29,821 nt of DNA, taken from IMG/VR virus record IMGVR_UViG_3300031539_000211, positions 1 to 29,821 of that record; one strand, 5' to 3'. The first letter of the stretch is position 1. Each line of letters begins with the position of its first letter. Shown here in pieces: positions 7,955 to 28,954 of the stretch. Under the pieces are notes generated by a model. That model did not search any database and was not told the origin of the DNA. It saw nothing but the letters and a program-made list of their open reading frames with translations. The position numbers and the translations under genes are program-made. This DNA is from a virus.

Positions 7955-8335
7955 TTATCTGTGAAATCGTCCACTTGCAAGACCAGTATCTCTGCGCAAC
8001 GAGCTTTCGACCGCGGCGTCCAGCCCTCGCAGAATTTCCTCGATCAGCGGCCGCATCCTGCACGGCCCCGTCGCCGTCAGCAACTCGGTAATGACCGCCG
8101 TTAGTGTAAACAGCTCTTCCCAATTCAGATCGGCCAGCGTTATCGACGGCAGGCCCGGCCGCGTGGTGTCCAGAATCCAGTGCGAGCTTAGATGCAACTC
8201 CATCGCCACGGCCCGAACCTGCGGATTGCGATGCCGTGTCGCCAGCCGGATAATCGCCGTAAGCTGGAGGAACACGGGAGGCTCCATGCCACAGAGGGAA
8301 ATGCGTTCACGTCTGTCATCAACGATAACTGTCAT
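7955..8335 (-). CDS. Hypothetical protein, 126 aa, coupled to radical SAM gene
   Basis: The ATG at 8335 overlaps the stop of the radical SAM gene (ATGA, 8332-8335), so I use this start rather than the longer open frame. The product begins MTVIVDDRRERISLCGMEPP and is largely helical, with LFTLTAVITELLTATG in the middle. Translational coupling suggests it is made together with the radical SAM and AAA+ proteins. No recognised domain. Confidence 0.6.
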   Translation of the reverse strand: MTVIVDDRRERISLCGMEPPVFLQLTAIIRLATRHRNPQVRAVAMELHLSSHWILDTTRPGLPSITLADLNWEELFTLTAVITELLTATGPCRMRPLIEEILRGLDAAVESSLRRDTGLASGRFHR

Positions 8336-9087
8336 ATTGATCGGCTCTCCGTGTTCTTGAATTTGACGCCCTTGAGGTATTCGGCCAAATCGGTCTTCAC
8401 ATAGTAGGGGACACCGTAGCTTTCGCAAAGCCTGATGGCATCCGTTCCAAATTGCCGCCAATCGGTATCACTGCTTCGATGATTGAGCTTGCCGATTTTG
8501 TAGAGGTCCACTATCTTGTGAGTCTCTTCGATGCACATCAGAGATTCATCGGGGTCCAGCACTGGTTCGAGAGAAACCCATGTCGTAAGCCCCTGTTTCT
8601 TCGCCGCTCGTATCGCCCGGATTCTGTCCGAAGGCAAGGCGGCGCCGGGTTCAATCTCAAGAGACTTGCCGTCGTCCTGAAGATAGGTCAACGTCGTAGC
8701 GAAAGCGTCATTGGGTCCGTAGAGGTCAAAGTCTCGCAAGGCCCGCGTGCCAGCTTTCGTCAGGATCTGGAAGGGAATTTTATGCTCTCGCAGAATCAGT
8801 AGGGCCTCCCGCGTGATACCCATTTCCATGTCTCGCGGTGGATATGGGTCACAGGTAAAGCAGAGAAGTAGCCGTTTCTTCGTCCCCGCAAATTTGATGC
8901 AGTCTTTTCGTAGCTCTTCCAAAATTGCACGCCGGGGCGTAGCGTTAGCGTGAAATTCCTTTGTAGTCTTGTGGAGTGCATTCGGGACGTAGCAGTAAGC
9001 ACACCCGTGAACGCACCCGCTGAAGAGATTACAGGCCAGCCAGGAATACTCCAGGGCCCGGCCTTTTGGTTCGTAGATCACCGACAT
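8332..9087 (-). CDS. Radical SAM protein, spore photoproduct lyase-like
   Basis: A 251-residue radical SAM enzyme. The cluster motif is CVHGCAYC (Cys25, Cys29, Cys32), the CxxxCxxC that binds the 4Fe-4S cluster and SAM. Further family-like segments are LLCFTCDPYPP, IPFQILTKAGTRALRDFDL and TTWVSLEPVLDPDESL. These match what I know of SplB/Rv2578c-type proteins (spore photoproduct lyase relatives), often annotated as DNA repair photolyases. The ATG at 9087 has AAAGGAG eight bases upstream; a longer frame starting at 9156 overlaps the AAA+ gene and lacks a site. It sits just after the clamp-loader-like gene, under the promoter at 9792-9820. The substrate is unknown. Confidence 0.85.
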   Translation of the reverse strand: MSVIYEPKGRALEYSWLACNLFSGCVHGCAYCYVPNALHKTTKEFHANATPRRAILEELRKDCIKFAGTKKRLLLCFTCDPYPPRDMEMGITREALLILREHKIPFQILTKAGTRALRDFDLYGPNDAFATTLTYLQDDGKSLEIEPGAALPSDRIRAIRAAKKQGLTTWVSLEPVLDPDESLMCIEETHKIVDLYKIGKLNHRSSDTDWRQFGTDAIRLCESYGVPYYVKTDLAEYLKGVKFKNTESRSI

Positions 9088-9101
9088 AGAATCAACTCCT
9101 T

Positions 9102-9743
9102 TCAGATATTCCCAACTTCGATTTTCTGCAACATCTGACGCATATTGTTTTTGCATTCAGCCGCAAGATGAAGATATGCCTGCATCGACTGGCCATCCAG
9201 CCCTTCTGCCTTGGCAATCTCTCTTGCTCGCCGGGCAAAGGCCCGCGTCACATGTGAGTTATTGGCCAGCGACAAATAAACGCACCGACTCAACAGCGGC
9301 CCTGCATCGAGTTGTTGCTCAAACAAACCAGTTTGACCGGCCTTCGTCGTGGTGAAAACAAAAACGACATGATTCGGAAGACGTTCGAGCAGCCCGAGCA
9401 AACGGCGAATCATCCATACTCGAAGGCCGTGGGCCTCGTTGATGATATAAGCGCGCCCGCCCTTGCCACCGCCATACAAGTGCATGTTGCGCTCGATATT
9501 CTCAAAGACCTCAAGAGTAAATGCCTCGCCGCTATCGTACTCCTCAACGAACCAGTCGTCGGCGATCTCTGCCGCCAATAACCGGCCAATCGTTGTTTTG
9601 CCTGTCCCTGAATGGCCGCATATCCAGAAGGCCCGCCCGCCGATCCCTTTTTTCTTGAGTTGCCTGATCTGATTGACCACGGCCATCTGTCCCTTGACAT
9701 CTGCCCAGCGTTTCGGTCGATAGGTCTCGTACAATGCGTTCAT
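9102..9743 (-). CDS. AAA+ ATPase, clamp-loader small-subunit-like
   Basis: A 213-residue protein resembling RFC small subunit/DnaX. It begins with the typical LYETYRPKRWADVKGQ, then Walker A GHSGTGKTT (residues 43-51) and the Walker B region AYIINEAHG. Sensor 1 is VFVFTTT and there is an SRC motif (PLLSRCVYLSL), which in clamp loaders holds the arginine finger. The helical lid follows, but the collar domain is missing, so it is about half the usual length. The Walker B acidic Asp position is Asn (NEAH rather than DEAH). The ATG at 9743 has GGAAGGAAA upstream and a promoter lies 50 bases further. Confidence 0.85.
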   Translation of the reverse strand: MNALYETYRPKRWADVKGQMAVVNQIRQLKKKGIGGRAFWICGHSGTGKTTIGRLLAAEIADDWFVEEYDSGEAFTLEVFENIERNMHLYGGGKGGRAYIINEAHGLRVWMIRRLLGLLERLPNHVVFVFTTTKAGQTGLFEQQLDAGPLLSRCVYLSLANNSHVTRAFARRAREIAKAEGLDGQSMQAYLHLAAECKNNMRQMLQKIEVGNI

Positions 9744-12928: not shown

Positions 12929-13465
12929 CTATTTGTCTTGATTTGCTTTTGATTCAGGCTGGAACAATCGCAAGGTATCGGCCGTCGATAGCTCCTTAAG
13001 TTTGCGCTGCTGAATCGTCTCGATAAGGCGCTGCGGCGCCTTCGTCTGGCTGAAGAGCATTATCACGTTCATGATACTGAGCTTGGCCGCCAGTATGGGT
13101 GTGACGTCTTTGCCGTTTATGGCTTGCCCGATCTCTTTGGCCCTGCGTTTGATGGTTCGACGCACGTGCTCGCGCGTCTTATCGGCAGCGCCCTCATAAT
13201 CGTCGCTGCGTTTGATGCCCGTATTCTGCACCGCCTCTAAGAGAATTTTGTGCTCGTTCTGGACGAGACGGCGAGCCGTTGCTAACAGTCCCCTGGCGTC
13301 CTTTTGAACGTCCCGGCCAATGGCCGCCGAAAGCTGCTGGTAGCTGGCCAGCTCATTGCCTTCTTTGATGAGCGCTGTCTCCAGGACGTTGTAGAGAATC
13401 CTCGCGTCACTCGATAGCTCAAACGGCCCCCGCCGCTTCGCCTCTGTTTTTTGTTTCTCTGCCAT
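12929..13465 (-). CDS. Hypothetical helical protein, 178 aa, with pentamer-array leader
   Basis: The ATG at 13465 has GAAAGGAG upstream, and directly beyond that lies the AACNN array (13493-13671), which would form the 5' leader. The product begins MAEKQKTEAKRRGPFELSSD. It has a possible winged-helix segment (ELASYQQLSAAIGRDVQKDA, about residues 38-57) followed by long helices. The C-terminus is polar. DNA or RNA binding is a guess from the HTH-like stretch. No named family. Confidence 0.65.
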   Translation of the reverse strand: MAEKQKTEAKRRGPFELSSDARILYNVLETALIKEGNELASYQQLSAAIGRDVQKDARGLLATARRLVQNEHKILLEAVQNTGIKRSDDYEGAADKTREHVRRTIKRRAKEIGQAINGKDVTPILAAKLSIMNVIMLFSQTKAPQRLIETIQQRKLKELSTADTLRLFQPESKANQDK

Positions 13466-13492
13466 GATAAGGCTCCTTTCAAAAAAAGACTT

Positions 13493-13671
13493 AACTTAAC
13501 GCAACGTAACCGAACGCAACTGAACTCAACAGAACTCAACATAACTGAACAAAACGAAACGAAACCCAACGCATTTTGTTTCGTTCGCCCTCGAAAGACG
13601 AAACTCAACGCAACCTAACGTAACAGAACCCAACTAAACAGAACGTAACCGAACTCAACCAAACACAACTT
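13493..13671. repeat. AACNN pentamer array A (two blocks and a core)
   Basis: On the plus strand, 16 consecutive five-base units of the form AACNN run from 13493 to 13572 without a break. They are followed by a 29-base non-repeat spacer with the core attttgtttcgttcgccctc (13573-13592). Another 14 consecutive AACNN units run from 13602 to 13671. The second block is offset by one base from the phase of the first. The transcript of the downstream gene would read NNGUU repeats. AACGAAAC (13553-13560) and GTTTCGTT (13578-13585) form an 8-bp inverted repeat spanning the end of block 1 and the core. No known repeat family. Confidence 0.95.
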
Positions 13672-13686
13672 ACGCATGTCACTCTA

Positions 13687-14292
13687 TCACTCCAGCATCG
13701 TCTTGACGCGGAAGTTCTCGGCGCTGTACCTGCCGAATTGCCCGCCATTGCCCACGCGCATGCCGAGCAGGCCGATGAACTTCCCGCTAAACACCACGTA
13801 CTGTTCGACCTTATCCATGTGACTCAAGAGGACGGGGTCCAGTACGATAATCTCGGCTTTCGCTTTCCACTGTGCGATGATGGGAAAGATTCGCGTCACT
13901 TGTGCCCCTTTGGGCTTGCTCGGCTGGGCTGGCACCAACATGGGCGTCCCCTGGATGTCCTTTGCCTTGATACCGAGCTGCAAGGGTTCGATCACCATGA
14001 TTCCGGAGGCGAAGTGTTTGCTGTATGTCGCCTGCCCCTTGCCCGGAACCTTCTCGCTCAAATACTTCGCGGTATTCGCCAGCGTTTTTTTGAGGGCAAT
14101 GTTCGGAATGAACAGACAGCCCTGGTCATCGACGTGCATCCGCTCTCTCCAGGCGCGTTCTTCCTTTGCTTCCGGGGATTCGCCCTCCATGTCGGCGCTC
14201 ATAATCCGCTTGCCGTACAGCAGCGGCCCTGCGGAGACAAGGTCACAACACAGCACTACCGGCGTCATCGTTTCTACTTTTTCTTTAGCCAT
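13687..14292 (-). CDS. Hypothetical protein, 201 aa, flanked by pentamer arrays
   Basis: The ATG at 14292 has AAAGGAG eight bases upstream; the start eight codons earlier lies before the ribosome site and is rejected. The product begins MAKEKVETMTPVVLCCDLVS. It has a middle segment ATYSKHFASGIMVIEPLQLG, a beta-rich half and a glycine-rich end, GLLGMRVGNGGQFGRYSAEN. Similar G..R...GG..GRF endings occur in a common phage early protein group of unknown function and, loosely, in RAMP-fold proteins; I offer this only as a resemblance. It is bounded by AACNN arrays on both sides. Confidence 0.65.
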   Translation of the reverse strand: MAKEKVETMTPVVLCCDLVSAGPLLYGKRIMSADMEGESPEAKEERAWRERMHVDDQGCLFIPNIALKKTLANTAKYLSEKVPGKGQATYSKHFASGIMVIEPLQLGIKAKDIQGTPMLVPAQPSKPKGAQVTRIFPIIAQWKAKAEIIVLDPVLLSHMDKVEQYVVFSGKFIGLLGMRVGNGGQFGRYSAENFRVKTMLE

Positions 14293-14317
14293 TTTGGTAC
14301 TCCTTTCGATTGTCAAA

Positions 14318-14521
14318 AACTGAACTTAACTTAACGCAACTAAACAAAACCCAACTCAACAGAACTCAACCTAACGGAACAAAACCAAACTCAACGGACC
14401 TCAACCCATTTTGTTTCGTTCGCCCTCGGTTCAAAAGACTTAACTTAACGCAACATAACCGAACGCAACTGAACTCAACAAAACACAACATAACTGAACG
14501 AAACGAAACGCAACGTAACAT
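14318..14521. repeat. AACNN pentamer array B (two blocks and a core)
   Basis: On the plus strand, AACNN units run from 14318 to 14407 (18 units, one degenerate: 14398-14402 reads acctc). The same core as in array A then follows (14408-14427 attttgtttcgttcgccctc). A short spacer ends in gactt, and 16 more perfect AACNN units run from 14442 to 14521. Block 2 aligns unit for unit with block 1 of array A, and both are preceded by an A-run and gactt. It forms the leader of the 201-residue gene. The remaining bases to 14592 show nothing recognisable. Confidence 0.95.
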
Positions 14522-16603: not shown

Positions 16604-17026
16604 TTAAAACGGCAAGCTCTCTGATGCTGCTTGCCCAATATGTACAGGCTCTTGGTTTGTGTGCGACTTAGGTGTCATTGTTGTCTTGCGTGAGAGATAC
16701 AAGTCAAGGAACTTCCGGGTCTTATTGTCCGGTCCCTCCAAAATCTCATCGAACGCCAGATCCCGCAATCTCATCGACTCCTGCCGAGTGCCTATATACC
16801 GCTCCCGCACGGCTGGCTCATTCCAGTGTCGGATGATGATATGCCCATCGCCGTAGCCTACGTCGTAGCGGTCCCTGACCCGGCCGGCCTCAGTCTCTAT
16901 CGCCTCCCGATCGATTTTTTCCCAGCTTGGCGCCCGGCAGAACCACTTCACCCCTCGGTGGCTGAGCGAGCGACTGATCTCATAGGCCAGAAATATCTCT
17001 TTCGCAATCTTCTCCGGTTTAGGCAT
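16604..17026 (-). CDS. Hypothetical protein, 140 aa, next to initiator
   Basis: The ATG at 17026 has AAAGGGA upstream and overlaps the initiator stop by eight bases. The product begins MPKPEKIAKEIFLAYEISRS and contains YDVGYGDGHIIIRHWNE and a basic segment, NKTRKFLDLYLSRKTTMTPK. It ends ASESLPF; a hydrophobic-Pro-Phe tip after a polar region recalls the tip of single-strand DNA-binding proteins, though it is much less acidic. No named family. The context is replication. Confidence 0.6.
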   Translation of the reverse strand: MPKPEKIAKEIFLAYEISRSLSHRGVKWFCRAPSWEKIDREAIETEAGRVRDRYDVGYGDGHIIIRHWNEPAVRERYIGTRQESMRLRDLAFDEILEGPDNKTRKFLDLYLSRKTTMTPKSHTNQEPVHIGQAASESLPF

Positions 17027-18014
17027 GTTGCTTATCCCTTTCTGCTCGTGGTCGATAACCCAGCTCCTCTTTCACTCGGGAGAAAAACACCGCCAGCGGC
17101 TTGCGGCCAGTCTTGGACTCCTCGGCGATTTGTAGAATAGCGGCACTGCTGGTCTCACCCTGTTGGTCCGCCCAATGCTGGAGGTTCCACAGGGCGGTCA
17201 GGTCTTCCTTCGTCTTGGGGCCCAAGAGTTCTCGAAGCTTGTTTCCGAAACCGAGACGAGACGAGGCCGAGGACGATGACGCGCGAGCAATTGCCGAATC
17301 AGACGTTGCGTCGGCAGGTGGGTCGTCGGAGGTTTGTCCCTCGCGCGCGCGCGCGCGCGCACGCGTAGTTTCGTTTAGTTCCGTTTCGTTTCGTTCTCGT
17401 TTCGTTTCGTTCTCGTTATATAAGCGTCCTGGAGCCTTATATAACACTCCAGAATTTTCTGGAGAATGGTCATTTTTATTACCCATATTCACACTCTCCA
17501 GATTTTTCTGGAGTTTTACCCTGTTTTCGGTATCAATATCGCCGTTTGTTAATTTCGGTAATCCAGCACCTGTGTTATTGGTTGCACTTTCTTTATCTAT
17601 CTTACCGCTCTCCAGAATTTCCAGGAATTTCTGGAATGGGACTTCTTCCATCCAGCCGACTGTTGGATTTGTGAGAATCTCAATGGCAAATTGGACCCTA
17701 TCGAGTGGCTTTCGGCAGATCGTTGCGACCTCTTCGACAGTGGCCGGACGGCCCCGATGATTGAGCAATGCACCTCGCTTTTCCCCCTTTTCGCAAGCGG
17801 CGATTTCGAGGAATTTTTGGAAGAGTCCAAAGACCTCATAGTCTCTGTCGCCGGCCAGCATTTGCATGGCCAGGAAGCCGGCTCCCTGGGAGCGTCCGTG
17901 AACCTTAGAGCGGATGTATTCCAAGGGCCTGTTGCGCAACTTGTCGCCGGGTTTGGCGGGCTGGCCTTTCTCGTTGACTTCGTAGCGCTCTAACCATTCC
18001 GTGATGACGTACAT
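17019..18014 (-). CDS. Replication initiator-like protein with in-gene origin
   Basis: A 331-residue protein from the ATG at 18014, which has GGAGCAAGG upstream (a GTG at 18029 lacks a site). Residues 1-150 look like a phage initiator N-terminal winged-helix region (HRGRPATVEEVATICRKPLD, about residue 87). The segment FQKFLEI occurs twice (about residues 65 and 124). Residues 150-245 are a low-complexity linker that contains the origin-like DNA repeats. The C-terminal 85 residues are helical (ETSSAAILQIAEESKTGRKP). Architecture and position before a helicase gene resemble lambda O-type initiators. The assignment is by context and motif, not by a named family. Confidence 0.65.
   Translation of the reverse strand: MYVITEWLERYEVNEKGQPAKPGDKLRNRPLEYIRSKVHGRSQGAGFLAMQMLAGDRDYEVFGLFQKFLEIAACEKGEKRGALLNHRGRPATVEEVATICRKPLDRVQFAIEILTNPTVGWMEEVPFQKFLEILESGKIDKESATNNTGAGLPKLTNGDIDTENRVKLQKNLESVNMGNKNDHSPENSGVLYKAPGRLYNENETKRERNETELNETTRARARAREGQTSDDPPADATSDSAIARASSSSASSRLGFGNKLRELLGPKTKEDLTALWNLQHWADQQGETSSAAILQIAEESKTGRKPLAVFFSRVKEELGYRPRAERDKQHA
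17342..17365. repeat. Alternating (CG)n tract
   Basis: Nineteen bases of uninterrupted alternating C and G (17342-17360), followed by acgcg. It encodes the Arg-Ala-Arg-Ala stretch of the initiator linker. Such tracts can flip to Z-DNA under negative supercoiling. Confidence 0.9.
17368..17417 (-). repeat. Pentamer array C, opposite orientation, in coding sequence
   Basis: GTT occurs at 17368, 17373, 17378, 17383, 17388, 17393, 17399, 17404, 17409 and 17415, so every five bases with two six-base steps. On the minus (coding) strand this is the same AAC-every-five-bases pattern as arrays A and B, but inverted relative to them. It encodes a Asn-Glu-Thr/Lys/Arg-rich linker. Five-base periodicity does not match codons, so the period is a DNA or RNA property. 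Confidence 0.85.
17447..17464. repeat. Iteron 1, perfect 18-bp palindrome
   Basis: ctccagaattttctggag: two perfect 8-bp arms around a central TT. It encodes Pro-Glu-Asn-Ser-Gly in the initiator. A further half-site, CTGGAG, lies at 17429-17434. Confidence 0.85.
17496..17513. repeat. Iteron 2, 18-bp palindrome
   Basis: ctccagatttttctggag differs from iteron 1 at one position and starts 49 bp from it. It is read in a different codon frame (Leu-Gln-Lys-Asn-Leu-Glu), so the shared sequence is conserved as DNA rather than as peptide. Confidence 0.85.
17610..17634. repeat. Iteron 3, extended imperfect palindrome
   Basis: Begins ctccagaattt, as in iteron 1, continues ccaggaattt and ends ctgg. The whole 25 bases form an imperfect palindrome with CCAGAA/TTCTGG-type ends. 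Confidence 0.65.
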
Positions 18015-18033
18015 GCGTCCTTGCTCCACTGTT

Positions 18034-19646: not shown

Positions 19647-20206
19647 GGATTGCTTTCGAAAAAAGCCCGTGCGAAACCGGGCGGGGTAATCGAGCGTTGA
19701 AGTTTCCAACTACTCGACATCTTCGCTGTTCGGTCCCGCTTGCCGGGTGTACCGAGAAGAACGGGACGGTGGGCAATGCCAACCGACTGCGGTGATGTGA
19801 AGCTCCCCCATAACCAGGTACGTTTCGTCCAGGCGTCCCCAAACCACCAGGGATCGAATTTATAGCAAGGCTCTCCCAGATAGTCCTTGAGTCGCCCAGT
19901 AGGGTTCTCGATAGCCCACCATGCAGGTTTACATCTATGAATAATTCTCAGGCAGGCATCGACTATACTCAGACCATCCAGTAGCGCACTTGGGCCTTTA
20001 TTTTTCCACCATCGCGCGCCTACTCTGGCAAAGTGGTCACACGGCGGAGCGGCCAGAATCCCATGCACATTCTTCGGTGGGATGTAGAGCCTGACATCGT
20101 GCTCCGGCAATGTGATAAGCCTTACATCATATCCCGCGTCCCTGTACGGCTTCGACCAGGCCCCGGTTCCGCCACACAAATCAAGGATGATTTTGTCTTG
20201 GTTCAT
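19643..20206 (-). CDS. Short C5-cytosine methyltransferase-like protein
   Basis: A 187-residue protein with motif I LDLCGGTGAWSKP (residues 8-20), motif IV AAPPC (Cys56 as the catalytic candidate), motif VI AIENP (98-102) and motif VIII-like TKRTWLWG. The target-recognition region and motifs IX-X of Dcm-type enzymes are missing, so it is about half-length. Such short Dcm-like proteins are common in phages and may need a partner or act differently. The ATG at 20206 is chosen for its ATGA overlap with the PAPS-reductase-like gene and AGAAAGGG eight bases upstream. Confidence 0.75.
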   Translation of the reverse strand: MNQDKIILDLCGGTGAWSKPYRDAGYDVRLITLPEHDVRLYIPPKNVHGILAAPPCDHFARVGARWWKNKGPSALLDGLSIVDACLRIIHRCKPAWWAIENPTGRLKDYLGEPCYKFDPWWFGDAWTKRTWLWGSFTSPQSVGIAHRPVLLGTPGKRDRTAKMSSSWKLQRSITPPGFARAFFESNP

Positions 20207-20238
20207 TCCCATAACCCTTTCTGGCCCTGCCGGGCCTC
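20200..20238. repeat. Junction repeat J1, copy 1
   Basis: 39 bases spanning the end of the PAPS-reductase-like gene and the start of the C5-MTase-like gene. They include the ribosome site and ATGA overlap. 38 of 39 bases match the copy at 20985-21023; the only difference is ataacC versus ataacG. Confidence 0.95.
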
Positions 20239-20991
20239 CTTCACCGGAACGCCCGTCTCGTTCGTGGTTACAGCATCCCTGTTCAGCCACCATTGCCAAT
20301 ATGCCTCAGCGGAACCGTAAACATCTTTCGCCGGGTTATAGGTTGCTTTAATCGCCCGTTCCCAGGCCCTTGCTATCTGAGGCCAGCGTTGTATGTGCTT
20401 TTCAACGTCGCGGACCATCGGGCAAAGCACACACCCAAGTCGGGTAAACCCCTCTGCGTACAACGAGCAGACTTTTATTTCATGGCCCCGGATATATGAC
20501 CAGACATCATCGGTTGACCAATCAATGATGAGATTGAGGTATCGCTTGCTGATATCCTTGTAACAGGATTCGACCATGCCCCGTGCCGACCGTGCCGAAC
20601 TTTCGGCCCATCGGATGCCGGTAATAACCAAATGGTCACGCCCGCCAGATTCTTTTTGAGTCTCACAACAGTATCGCAAGTTGCGTCGTGGTGGGCACTG
20701 CTTTCGTTTTATGAGTTGCCACATCGTATGCTTGGGCCGGTGAATCTCCACATCAGGCTGCTCTTTGACATGCCGTACAACCTCCGGTGGGTCTGCCGTT
20801 GTCAACGCATGATGGGCTGTGTATTTCACCCCAGAACGCCGGACAAGGTCAAGAATGACATCGGAGTCTTTCCCCCCAGAATAGGCAACGTAATATCCGT
20901 CGTCAGCCATGTTCAAGGCAGATTCCTCAAACATGTGCAAACGCTCAATGGCAATCTGTTCCAGCGATTTGCCGAAAAGTATCTGGTTCAT
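20203..20991 (-). CDS. PAPS reductase/DndC-like ATP pyrophosphatase
   Basis: A 262-residue PP-loop protein: SGGKDS (residues 38-43), then YCCETQKE and later RLGCVLCPM, cysteines that in DndC-like proteins can hold an iron-sulfur cluster. The C-terminal half has YGSAEAYWQWWLNRD. Phage members annotated as PAPS reductase often sit beside DNA methyltransferases and ParB-like genes, so sulfur transfer or DNA modification is possible. The ATG at 20991 overlaps the ASCH stop (ATGA). The tail EARQGQKGLWE is shared with two neighbours. No complete dnd operon is visible. Confidence 0.82.
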   Translation of the reverse strand: MNQILFGKSLEQIAIERLHMFEESALNMADDGYYVAYSGGKDSDVILDLVRRSGVKYTAHHALTTADPPEVVRHVKEQPDVEIHRPKHTMWQLIKRKQCPPRRNLRYCCETQKESGGRDHLVITGIRWAESSARSARGMVESCYKDISKRYLNLIIDWSTDDVWSYIRGHEIKVCSLYAEGFTRLGCVLCPMVRDVEKHIQRWPQIARAWERAIKATYNPAKDVYGSAEAYWQWWLNRDAVTTNETGVPVKEARQGQKGLWE

Positions 20992-21023
20992 TCCCATAAC
21001 GCTTTCTGGCCCTGCCGGGCCTC
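20985..21023. repeat. Junction repeat J1, copy 2
   Basis: Spans the end of the ASCH gene and the start of the PAPS-reductase-like gene; 38/39 identical to copy 1. The coding sense gives ...RQGQKALWE stop and the next MNQ. Confidence 0.95.
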
Positions 21024-27152: not shown

Positions 27153-27872
27153 TTACAAAAACGTCTTGATAAACAGCGATTCCTCAATGTCCTTGCGCAC
27201 CATCTTCTTGTCCATGTTGTCGGACGAACAATGCAGTAGGTGGATCTCCCGGCATTGGCTCAGGTTACAAAACTCCTTCACGTACCGTTTCGCCACACGC
27301 CATTCGGTATGAGAGACGAGCAGTCGCTCGGCCAGCGTCTCGTTGATCTCCTGTCGCTCCACGCGTCCGGCCAATACGTCTTTGTCGTAGCTGGCCGAGA
27401 TGGCAATGATATCGAACGCGATACCGAATCGCTGCGTGATGTGCGAGGTGTCGGTGACGAAAAAAAGGTTCTCATCCCCGGCATTTTCGTGGACGATGAA
27501 CCCCAACGGCTCCTTCGCATCGTGGTGGACCGCGAAGGGGAATACCTCGAACGTCTCGCTGATGGCAAATCGTTCCCCGTCTCGGATGGTGTGCGTCCGT
27601 CGATGCAGGTGCAGCGACTCTTCAATCCCCAGGAATGTGCCTTCGCTCGCATAGACATCAATCCCAGCCTTTAGGATATTCTCAACGCCCTGGCTGTGGT
27701 CCTTGTGTTCGTGTGTGACCAAGCAACCGTCGATAGCCGTCAGATCGTACTTGAGGGCCTTCTGGAGTTTCTTCCACGTCACGCCGCACTCAATGAGCAA
27801 CCGCCTCCCGTTGGCCGCGGTGACGGTGTAAAAGTTGCCCGAGCTCGATGAGTAGAAGGTCTCAAACGTCAT
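27153..27872 (-). CDS. Metallo-beta-lactamase-fold nuclease, RecT partner
   Basis: A 239-residue MBL-fold hydrolase. Strand-loop SSSSGNFYTV opens the fold. HEHKDH (residues 54-59) is the HxHxDH dinuclear metal site; later ligands are likely FVTDTSH (Asp/His) and LLHCSSDN (His). Members of this YycJ/WalJ-like group sit beside recT in many phages and are thought to provide the 5'-3' exonuclease that makes single strands for annealing. The ATG at 27872 overlaps the RecT stop (ATGA), so the two are made together. Nuclease polarity is inferred from family context. Confidence 0.87.
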   Translation of the reverse strand: MTFETFYSSSSGNFYTVTAANGRRLLIECGVTWKKLQKALKYDLTAIDGCLVTHEHKDHSQGVENILKAGIDVYASEGTFLGIEESLHLHRRTHTIRDGERFAISETFEVFPFAVHHDAKEPLGFIVHENAGDENLFFVTDTSHITQRFGIAFDIIAISASYDKDVLAGRVERQEINETLAERLLVSHTEWRVAKRYVKEFCNLSQCREIHLLHCSSDNMDKKMVRKDIEESLFIKTFL

Positions 27873-28954
27873 CGGTAGTCCCCGGCCTCGTTCTGGTCGC
27901 CGTTAGCCTCTGGATTCAGGCAGATTTGGAGCGTGCCACAGCCTGGGCATTTCGCTACGCTGTTATTCGGCCCCGTCATCGCCGGATCATTGAATGTCAG
28001 TCCGCACCCGGCGTTTCGACAGAGATACTTGAACTTGGGGATTTCAGTCGTTGGCGACTCAGTGGTAGTCGTCTTCTTGCCTTTGCCTCTGGTTCGCTTC
28101 TTATCTTCCGCTGCTGGCGGCAGAGATTTACCGTTCTCGAAGTTAGCATCGACCGGGTCGCTGCCCAGGTCGGCGGCGATGAACGCGGAGGCGTCCGTCG
28201 AAGCCTCGTCAAACGTATCGCGGTCGGCGGTGATCATCTCCTGCATTTCAATCGACATGACGCCATAGCGCTTCAGGCATCGCAGCAGCACGGTCTTGTT
28301 GCCCATCGGGATCGGGTCCGTGGACCACGGTGAGGCTTTCTTGCCCGCACTCACGTCGTACTGATAGGCTTTGCTGTACCGCCGGGCGTGGGCCATGACT
28401 TCGGCATGAGTCATGTAGTCGGATTTCTCAAACCCGGTAATCAGTTTGAAATACACGTAGTGTCCGACGACATCTCCGTCCGTGCGCTTGTCGCTGTACC
28501 GTAGTTTGAACGTGTCCGGGTCATTGAACGTCACAACACCGGTGATCGGGTTGTGGCTCTTGAGTTCGTCGCGGTAGATTTCCGAGCAATGGATGGTTTG
28601 ATACTGGCCCGAGCGTATGCACAGTTGAATGACCCCGCGATACATGATTTGAAAGACCGCTTCCTGGCCATAGGGGACAATCGCCGCATGGCCCAGGGCC
28701 GGGTCAATGGCTAAATTCACGGTCGCTGCACGCATCGCCGCCCGGCAGACGCTGCCTGGATTCTGTCGGGCAACCTCCAGTAGTTGTTTGCTGCTGCCGA
28801 CGACGTTGATAATGGAATTGATGAACGCCCCGGACCGCTTGCCCAATACGTCCTCGAATCGCTTTTTGATCGACTCGTCGGACAAATAACCCTTCATAAT
28901 TCCCAACGGTCCTGCCGGTCGTTTCTGAATTTCACCTGTCTCTGTCTGTGTCAT
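27869..28954 (-). CDS. recT: RecT-family single-strand annealing protein with zinc tail
   Basis: A 361-residue RecT protein. FINSIINVVGSSKQLLEVAR, NPGSVCRAAMRAATVNLAID, GHAAIVPYGQEAVFQIMYRG and VIQLCIRSGQYQTIH follow the RecT/RecT_Lis pattern (nP.S...A...aa.lgL.....lg.a.lvPy...a.fqigyrG...l..rsG). It promotes annealing of complementary strands during phage recombination. After a Lys/Thr-rich linker the last 50 residues contain CRNAGCG and CPGCG, a zinc ribbon that ordinary RecT proteins lack. The ATG at 28954 has AAGGAAGGAAA upstream. Coupled to the nuclease. Confidence 0.93.
   Translation of the reverse strand: MTQTETGEIQKRPAGPLGIMKGYLSDESIKKRFEDVLGKRSGAFINSIINVVGSSKQLLEVARQNPGSVCRAAMRAATVNLAIDPALGHAAIVPYGQEAVFQIMYRGVIQLCIRSGQYQTIHCSEIYRDELKSHNPITGVVTFNDPDTFKLRYSDKRTDGDVVGHYVYFKLITGFEKSDYMTHAEVMAHARRYSKAYQYDVSAGKKASPWSTDPIPMGNKTVLLRCLKRYGVMSIEMQEMITADRDTFDEASTDASAFIAADLGSDPVDANFENGKSLPPAAEDKKRTRGKGKKTTTTESPTTEIPKFKYLCRNAGCGLTFNDPAMTGPNNSVAKCPGCGTLQICLNPEANGDQNEAGDYR

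Follow-up and report, generated by a model that had tools for sequence, protein, structure and literature searches.

Two neighbouring minus-strand genes in a viral DNA stretch of 29,821 nucleotides (IMG/VR record IMGVR_UViG_3300031539_000211; hereafter the window) are preceded by arrays in which the triplet AAC returns every five bases, and the question is what such arrays encode and what reads them. AAC was found at five-base spacing at 13493-13572 (16/16 units), 13602-13671 (14/14), 14318-14407 (17/18) and 14442-14521 (16/16), so that the window holds four AACNN blocks of 16, 14, 18 and 16 units, 63 of 64 of them perfect; this bears out a preliminary description that had counted arrays of 30 (16 + 14) and 34 (18 + 16) units with one imperfect. 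The exception, at 14398-14402, reads ACC, or GGU in the RNA sense. The pattern (AACNN)6AAC had 38 matches on the plus strand of the window and 0 on the minus strand, the reversed control pattern had none, and a scan of triplets at periods 4 to 12 over the whole window gave no runs comparable to AAC at period 5. Because the genes lie on the minus strand and AACNN on the opposite strand, RNA from the arrays reads GUUNN.

In RNA order, and all on the minus strand, the first predicted guide tract is B2 (14442-14521, 16 GUUNN units), upstream of a 201-residue gene (13687-14292, called vipr below). It is followed by the junction between the array B tracts (14408-14441), with the core CGAGGGCGAACGAAACAAAAT in RNA sense at 14408-14428, and by predicted tract B1 (14318-14407, 18 units including the imperfect one). 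Predicted tract A2 (13602-13671, 14 units) lies directly 3' of the vipr stop and is joined through the array A junction (13573-13601) to predicted tract A1 (13493-13572, 16 units, homologous to B2), upstream of a 178-residue gene (12929-13465, called vap below). The same core of 20-21 bases (ATTTTGTTTCGTTCGCCCTCG at 13573-13593 and 14408-14428) sits in both arrays, as the block-core-block layout first described would have it. Array B stops just before the Shine-Dalgarno sequence of vipr (14300-14306) and array A just before that of vap (13473-13479), both AAAGGAG and both read directly from the sequence, and the earlier placement of the arrays immediately upstream of these ribosome sites was therefore correct. 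The array A junction is hairpin-capable, as its core can pair with an adjacent GUUUC unit, although weakly (-8.8 kcal/mol, z -1.9). A shorter core, (G)AGGCAAACGAAATAAATG or GGTAACGAAATAAAT, lies beside the tracts of three related loci (L121, L128 and L130), and relatives have GUUAAGUUAAGUU at tract ends, then the ribosome site, as well as constant AA-AA end units in their tracts. Promoter and terminator scans stayed at chance level. On the plus strand at 17342-17417, a (CG)n tract is followed by GTTTC/GTTCTC repeats inside the minus-strand gene 17019-18029; these repeats form no degenerate guide array, and the GTTTC repeat (17368-17417), lying within this gene of the opposite strand, does not belong to the system.

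Searching viral contigs for (AACNN)9AAC brought up 92 stretches. About half of the contigs held simple perfect pentamer repeats, as might suit neutral satellite DNA or a slippage product with no function. The window arrays, however, are degenerate at NN and, the one unit aside, perfect at AAC, and comparison of the homologous tracts A1 (13493-13572) and B2 (14442-14521) revealed 9 differences, all within the 32 NN positions, with every AAC base (48 positions) unchanged (p about 1e-4 by a hypergeometric test). Since the differences are confined to NN, the triplet is under selection and not decaying. Read as NNx codons, A1 and B2 give similar peptides with changes of the V/I, R/K and S/T kind, and the two are apparently versions of one guide. 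Among the Vipr loci surveyed below, moreover, a single triplet is used in all arrays of a locus, always in the vipr sense, and a functionless satellite is accordingly a very improbable account. The scan also yielded about 30 other viral loci with degenerate AACNN/GUUNN arrays, often several per locus, positioned between genes with AAC opposite to the gene strand; in one exception (L085) AAC is on the sense strand. Since many independent contigs share the layout, the arrays are not an assembly artefact, and with AAC conserved, the concern that they might be missing from relatives or decaying neutrally has fallen away.

Some loci are arranged differently. CRISPR-like rows of GUU tracts of 10-13 units were seen at L040:7043-7673, L080:87-377 and L084:6420-6656; in AAC order most of these tracts end in AACCG and many are spaced by 4 bases, and beside them are encoded a long Vipr and a further family of 172 residues (10 loci). 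This layout is unlike that of the window. At L131:4698-4945, after every ATT/GTT tract comes an inverted repeat that looks perfect (tgaggcctct...agaggcctca), possibly a tail or terminator.

The preliminary description had proposed a search for gene families linked to the repeat. When proteins of array loci found by the repeat alone were clustered, one family was present in 29 of 33, and its member in the window is the 201-residue gene between arrays A and B. This bears on the idea that the arrays are bound by RecT or by some other filament recombinase, in favour of which it could be said that RecT is encoded in the window and that, as first suggested, such a protein covers about five bases per subunit. 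RecT lies at 27869-28954, 13 kb from the arrays, the array-linked family across contigs is Vipr and not RecT, and the triplet shifts between loci along with Vipr residues; recombinase binding can hardly be credited as the explanation. The surmise of a filament-forming partner survives to the extent that five bases per subunit fits, with the adjacent RAMP protein, Vipr, as the partner in place of RecT. The neighbour of RecT, at 27153-27872, has a metallo-beta-lactamase fold and resembles anti-Pycsar Apyc1 weakly (2.9e-8, below the cut-off); it is possibly an anti-defence gene.

The identity of the 201-residue protein was established through profiles. As a single query it found no phage relative and no PDB match, and the link to SUSP1 Vipr needs the profile for that reason. 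The family profile matched the solved SUSP1 Vipr 36pp_D with E=1.9e-37, with Csm5 as runner-up; conversely, an HMM built from five named-phage Viprs matched the window protein at 1e-8, and a Vipr HMM built without the window member matched it at 4.6e-59. The AlphaFold2 model of the window protein has a pLDDT of 92.5, and the best 50 PDB matches in a fold search of the prediction are all chains of type III/VII CRISPR complexes. The modelled fold is that of a Cas7/Csm3 RAMP protein, and no other fold appears among these matches. The 178-residue protein has a counterpart family encoded in 69 of 104 Vipr loci, a median of 131 nt after vipr. An HMM of that family from which the window and the named phages had been left out still matched the window gene (1.9e-35), and it also matched the gene that comes after vipr in SUSP1 (1.5e-9); by this profile homology the 178-residue gene encodes an accessory protein of the SUSP1 vap1 family.

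VIPR (Viral Interference Programmable Repeat) was described in April 2026 for the SUSP1 and P. fulva clades as a phage RAMP protein together with vrRNAs of GGY/NN repeats that silences competing phages (bioRxiv 2026.04.26.720920; PMC13142463). In DNA recognition by vrRNAs one base is skipped per unit, a gapped code with the target rule NN-x-NN-x, in which x usually falls at the codon wobble position (PMC13142463). The window shares with these systems a RAMP protein of some 20 kDa encoded by the phage, a period-5 RNA of fixed triplet and variable NN, tracts of similar length (9-16 units published, 14-18 in the window) both upstream and downstream of vipr, and the vap1-family partner. It differs in that its triplet is GUU (63 of 64 units, with one GGU) and not strict GGY, though GUU keeps the first G and third pyrimidine of GGY, and in that its tracts occupy the vipr and vap leaders and are paired via the short conserved core. 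The main text of the preprint allows "a related consensus" besides GGY (fig. S17), and GUU may already be listed there (PMC13142463). The preprint also describes arrays interspersed with hammerhead ribozymes (PMC13142463), unlike the window and 11 related loci, in which no hammerhead or other Rfam ribozyme was found. In VIPR, moreover, the guide RNA is expressed and copurifies with Vipr, and it has an invariant, structured 3' tail; what can be set beside that tail here is the shared core with its weak hairpin and, in relatives, the constant AA-AA end units. As controls, Vipr homologues were examined in eight named phages, SUSP1 among them, and in all eight GGY/NN arrays lie next to vipr; for the further Vipr homologue of phage Medea1 there was no GKY array within 2.5 kb on either side. 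A Felixounavirus-type vipr was also noted at 91688-92272 of GU169904.1, a record named Staphylococcus phage SA1, a label that may be wrong. From the Vipr homology and fold, the vap1 family and the period-5 arrays together it follows that this is a VIPR locus, and the window very probably encodes a phage VIPR system with a GUU scaffold, whose NN guides would recognise double-stranded DNA and silence competitor genes. The earlier remark that these arrays fit no known class of phage repeat was fair, given how recently VIPR was described, and has been overtaken in that the class exists.

If the tracts are guides, their dinucleotides should carry information. Across GUU arrays, NN best fits codon positions 1-2, with a delta logL of +12.5 over all phases and +51 over positions 2-3; this is the best phase in 18 of 24 GUU loci (bootstrap 0.97), and the NN of arrays with other triplets also fits it best. 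In intergenic DNA of the GUU-array loci the codon 1-2 model is strongly disfavoured (-874), and for the window alone, with 44 units, the test is flat. The NN pairs thus look like the first two positions of codons, indirect signs that agree with the published one-base-skip rule. No natural target emerged: when the 317 guide tracts detected were compared with 1.76 Mb of fetched loci at skips of 0, 1, 2 and 4, no match was significant, and gapped patterns (A1/B2, B1, A2, and guides from L080/L084 and L022) run in five scans against viral contigs found none, every match stopping where the scanned pattern stops. Thirteen contigs matching "DDITYGIIN" were rejected as targets, belonging to one phage tail-gene family and being counted as one event.

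The codon-like dinucleotides also weigh on a cis-acting reading, by which Vipr would coat its own and the vap mRNA by the ribosome site and repress translation, as T4 gp32 or TRAP does, with NN devoid of guide information. That the tracts stop just before the vipr and vap Shine-Dalgarno sequences, in the window and in relatives, speaks for it. Yet NN is codon-like, unlike intergenic DNA, tracts also occur downstream of vipr and may form sets as large as a dozen, and the published vrRNAs are guides (PMC13142463), so that leader repression as the whole explanation appears unlikely; autoregulation could exist in addition to a guide role. The best reading of the arrays is as guide RNAs, in place of the origin, nucleoid element or simple riboregulator suggested at first.

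TRAP (trp RNA-binding attenuation protein) binds (G/U)AG-NN leaders, a triplet plus two spacer bases beside mRNA ribosome sites, much as in the window, but it has another protein fold and its spacers hold no target information; no TRAP homologue was found among the window genes scanned, and the idea of a TRAP-like ring was dropped when the RAMP family emerged. With Cas7/Csm3 of Class 1 CRISPR-Cas (types III and VII) the likeness is in the RAMP fold and in subunits that line a guide RNA, whereas the window guide would be gapped, two bases of every five, and not contiguous; the window has no CRISPR repeat-spacer arrays, and there was no CRISPR-family match among its genes scanned. TIGR-Tas likewise has tandem guide RNA arrays encoded by phage, but it uses a Nop-type protein and another repeat form and is unrelated to the window locus. 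Elsewhere in the window are a phosphoadenosine phosphosulfate reductase-like gene (20203-20997; phrog_424, 4.9e-35), of a kind that is sometimes part of DNA modification or defence, and a radical SAM protein (8332-9156; Pfam 1.6e-10).

For the VIPR reading, the fixed triplet itself proved variable. A protein-only search with window-type Viprs gave 88 further loci, most of which have degenerate arrays of period 5 in the vipr sense. In a survey of 104 Vipr loci, triplets were called by automatic de novo detection near vipr, and 22 of the 104 showed none by the criterion used. The triplets are GUU, GGC, GAC, CGC, CAC and CUC, with rarer ones besides. On the tree there are about 26 triplet changes in the window-type clade, and GUU needs eight, at least three of them on well-supported branches; on this phylogeny GUU arose at least three times among Viprs. 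Loci with V120 in Vipr have G at base 1 in 37 of 38 cases, and those with other residues have C in 18 of 19 (raw 55/57), a covariation that is to be taken as a lead because its well-supported independent contrasts are only two. R177, in the presumed G-loop, accompanies G at base 2 in 27 of 28 cases, yet is also present in 13 of 31 others, and in a close set of 76-78% identity GGC to GAC accompanies S25 to G, with L140 and L134 as exceptions. The covariation between the triplet and these residues, which sit in two loops predicted to face the RNA, is a strong lead that falls short of proof, as there are few independent contrasts. We lean, if only slightly, towards the fixed triplet being a fast-evolving code read by Vipr (V120 for base 1, R177 and S25 for base 2), with GUU systems silencing by the one-base skip; were the triplet such a protein-read code, natural VIPRs would therefore be mutually orthogonal.

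The mechanism envisaged is as follows. The arrays would be transcribed as GUUNN repeats, and Vipr subunits, one per five nucleotides, would line the transcript as a filament, each holding on to one GUU and leaving its two variable bases exposed. A tract of 14-18 units could carry 28-36 bases of information in its NN pairs, which together would read double-stranded DNA by the rule NN-x-NN-x, with one base skipped per unit, so that a competing phage or satellite might have one of its genes silenced with the assistance of the vap1-like protein. The leader-embedded guides would presumably be processed from the transcript, and the four tracts could supply up to four guides.

In summary, the VIPR reading explains a repeat class that resembled nothing known and places it in a newly described programmable DNA-recognition system that has been proposed to precede CRISPR. 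The diversity of triplets suggests a ready set of orthogonal VIPR systems, and the switching of the scaffold triplet between close relatives makes the reading of RNA by Vipr directly testable.
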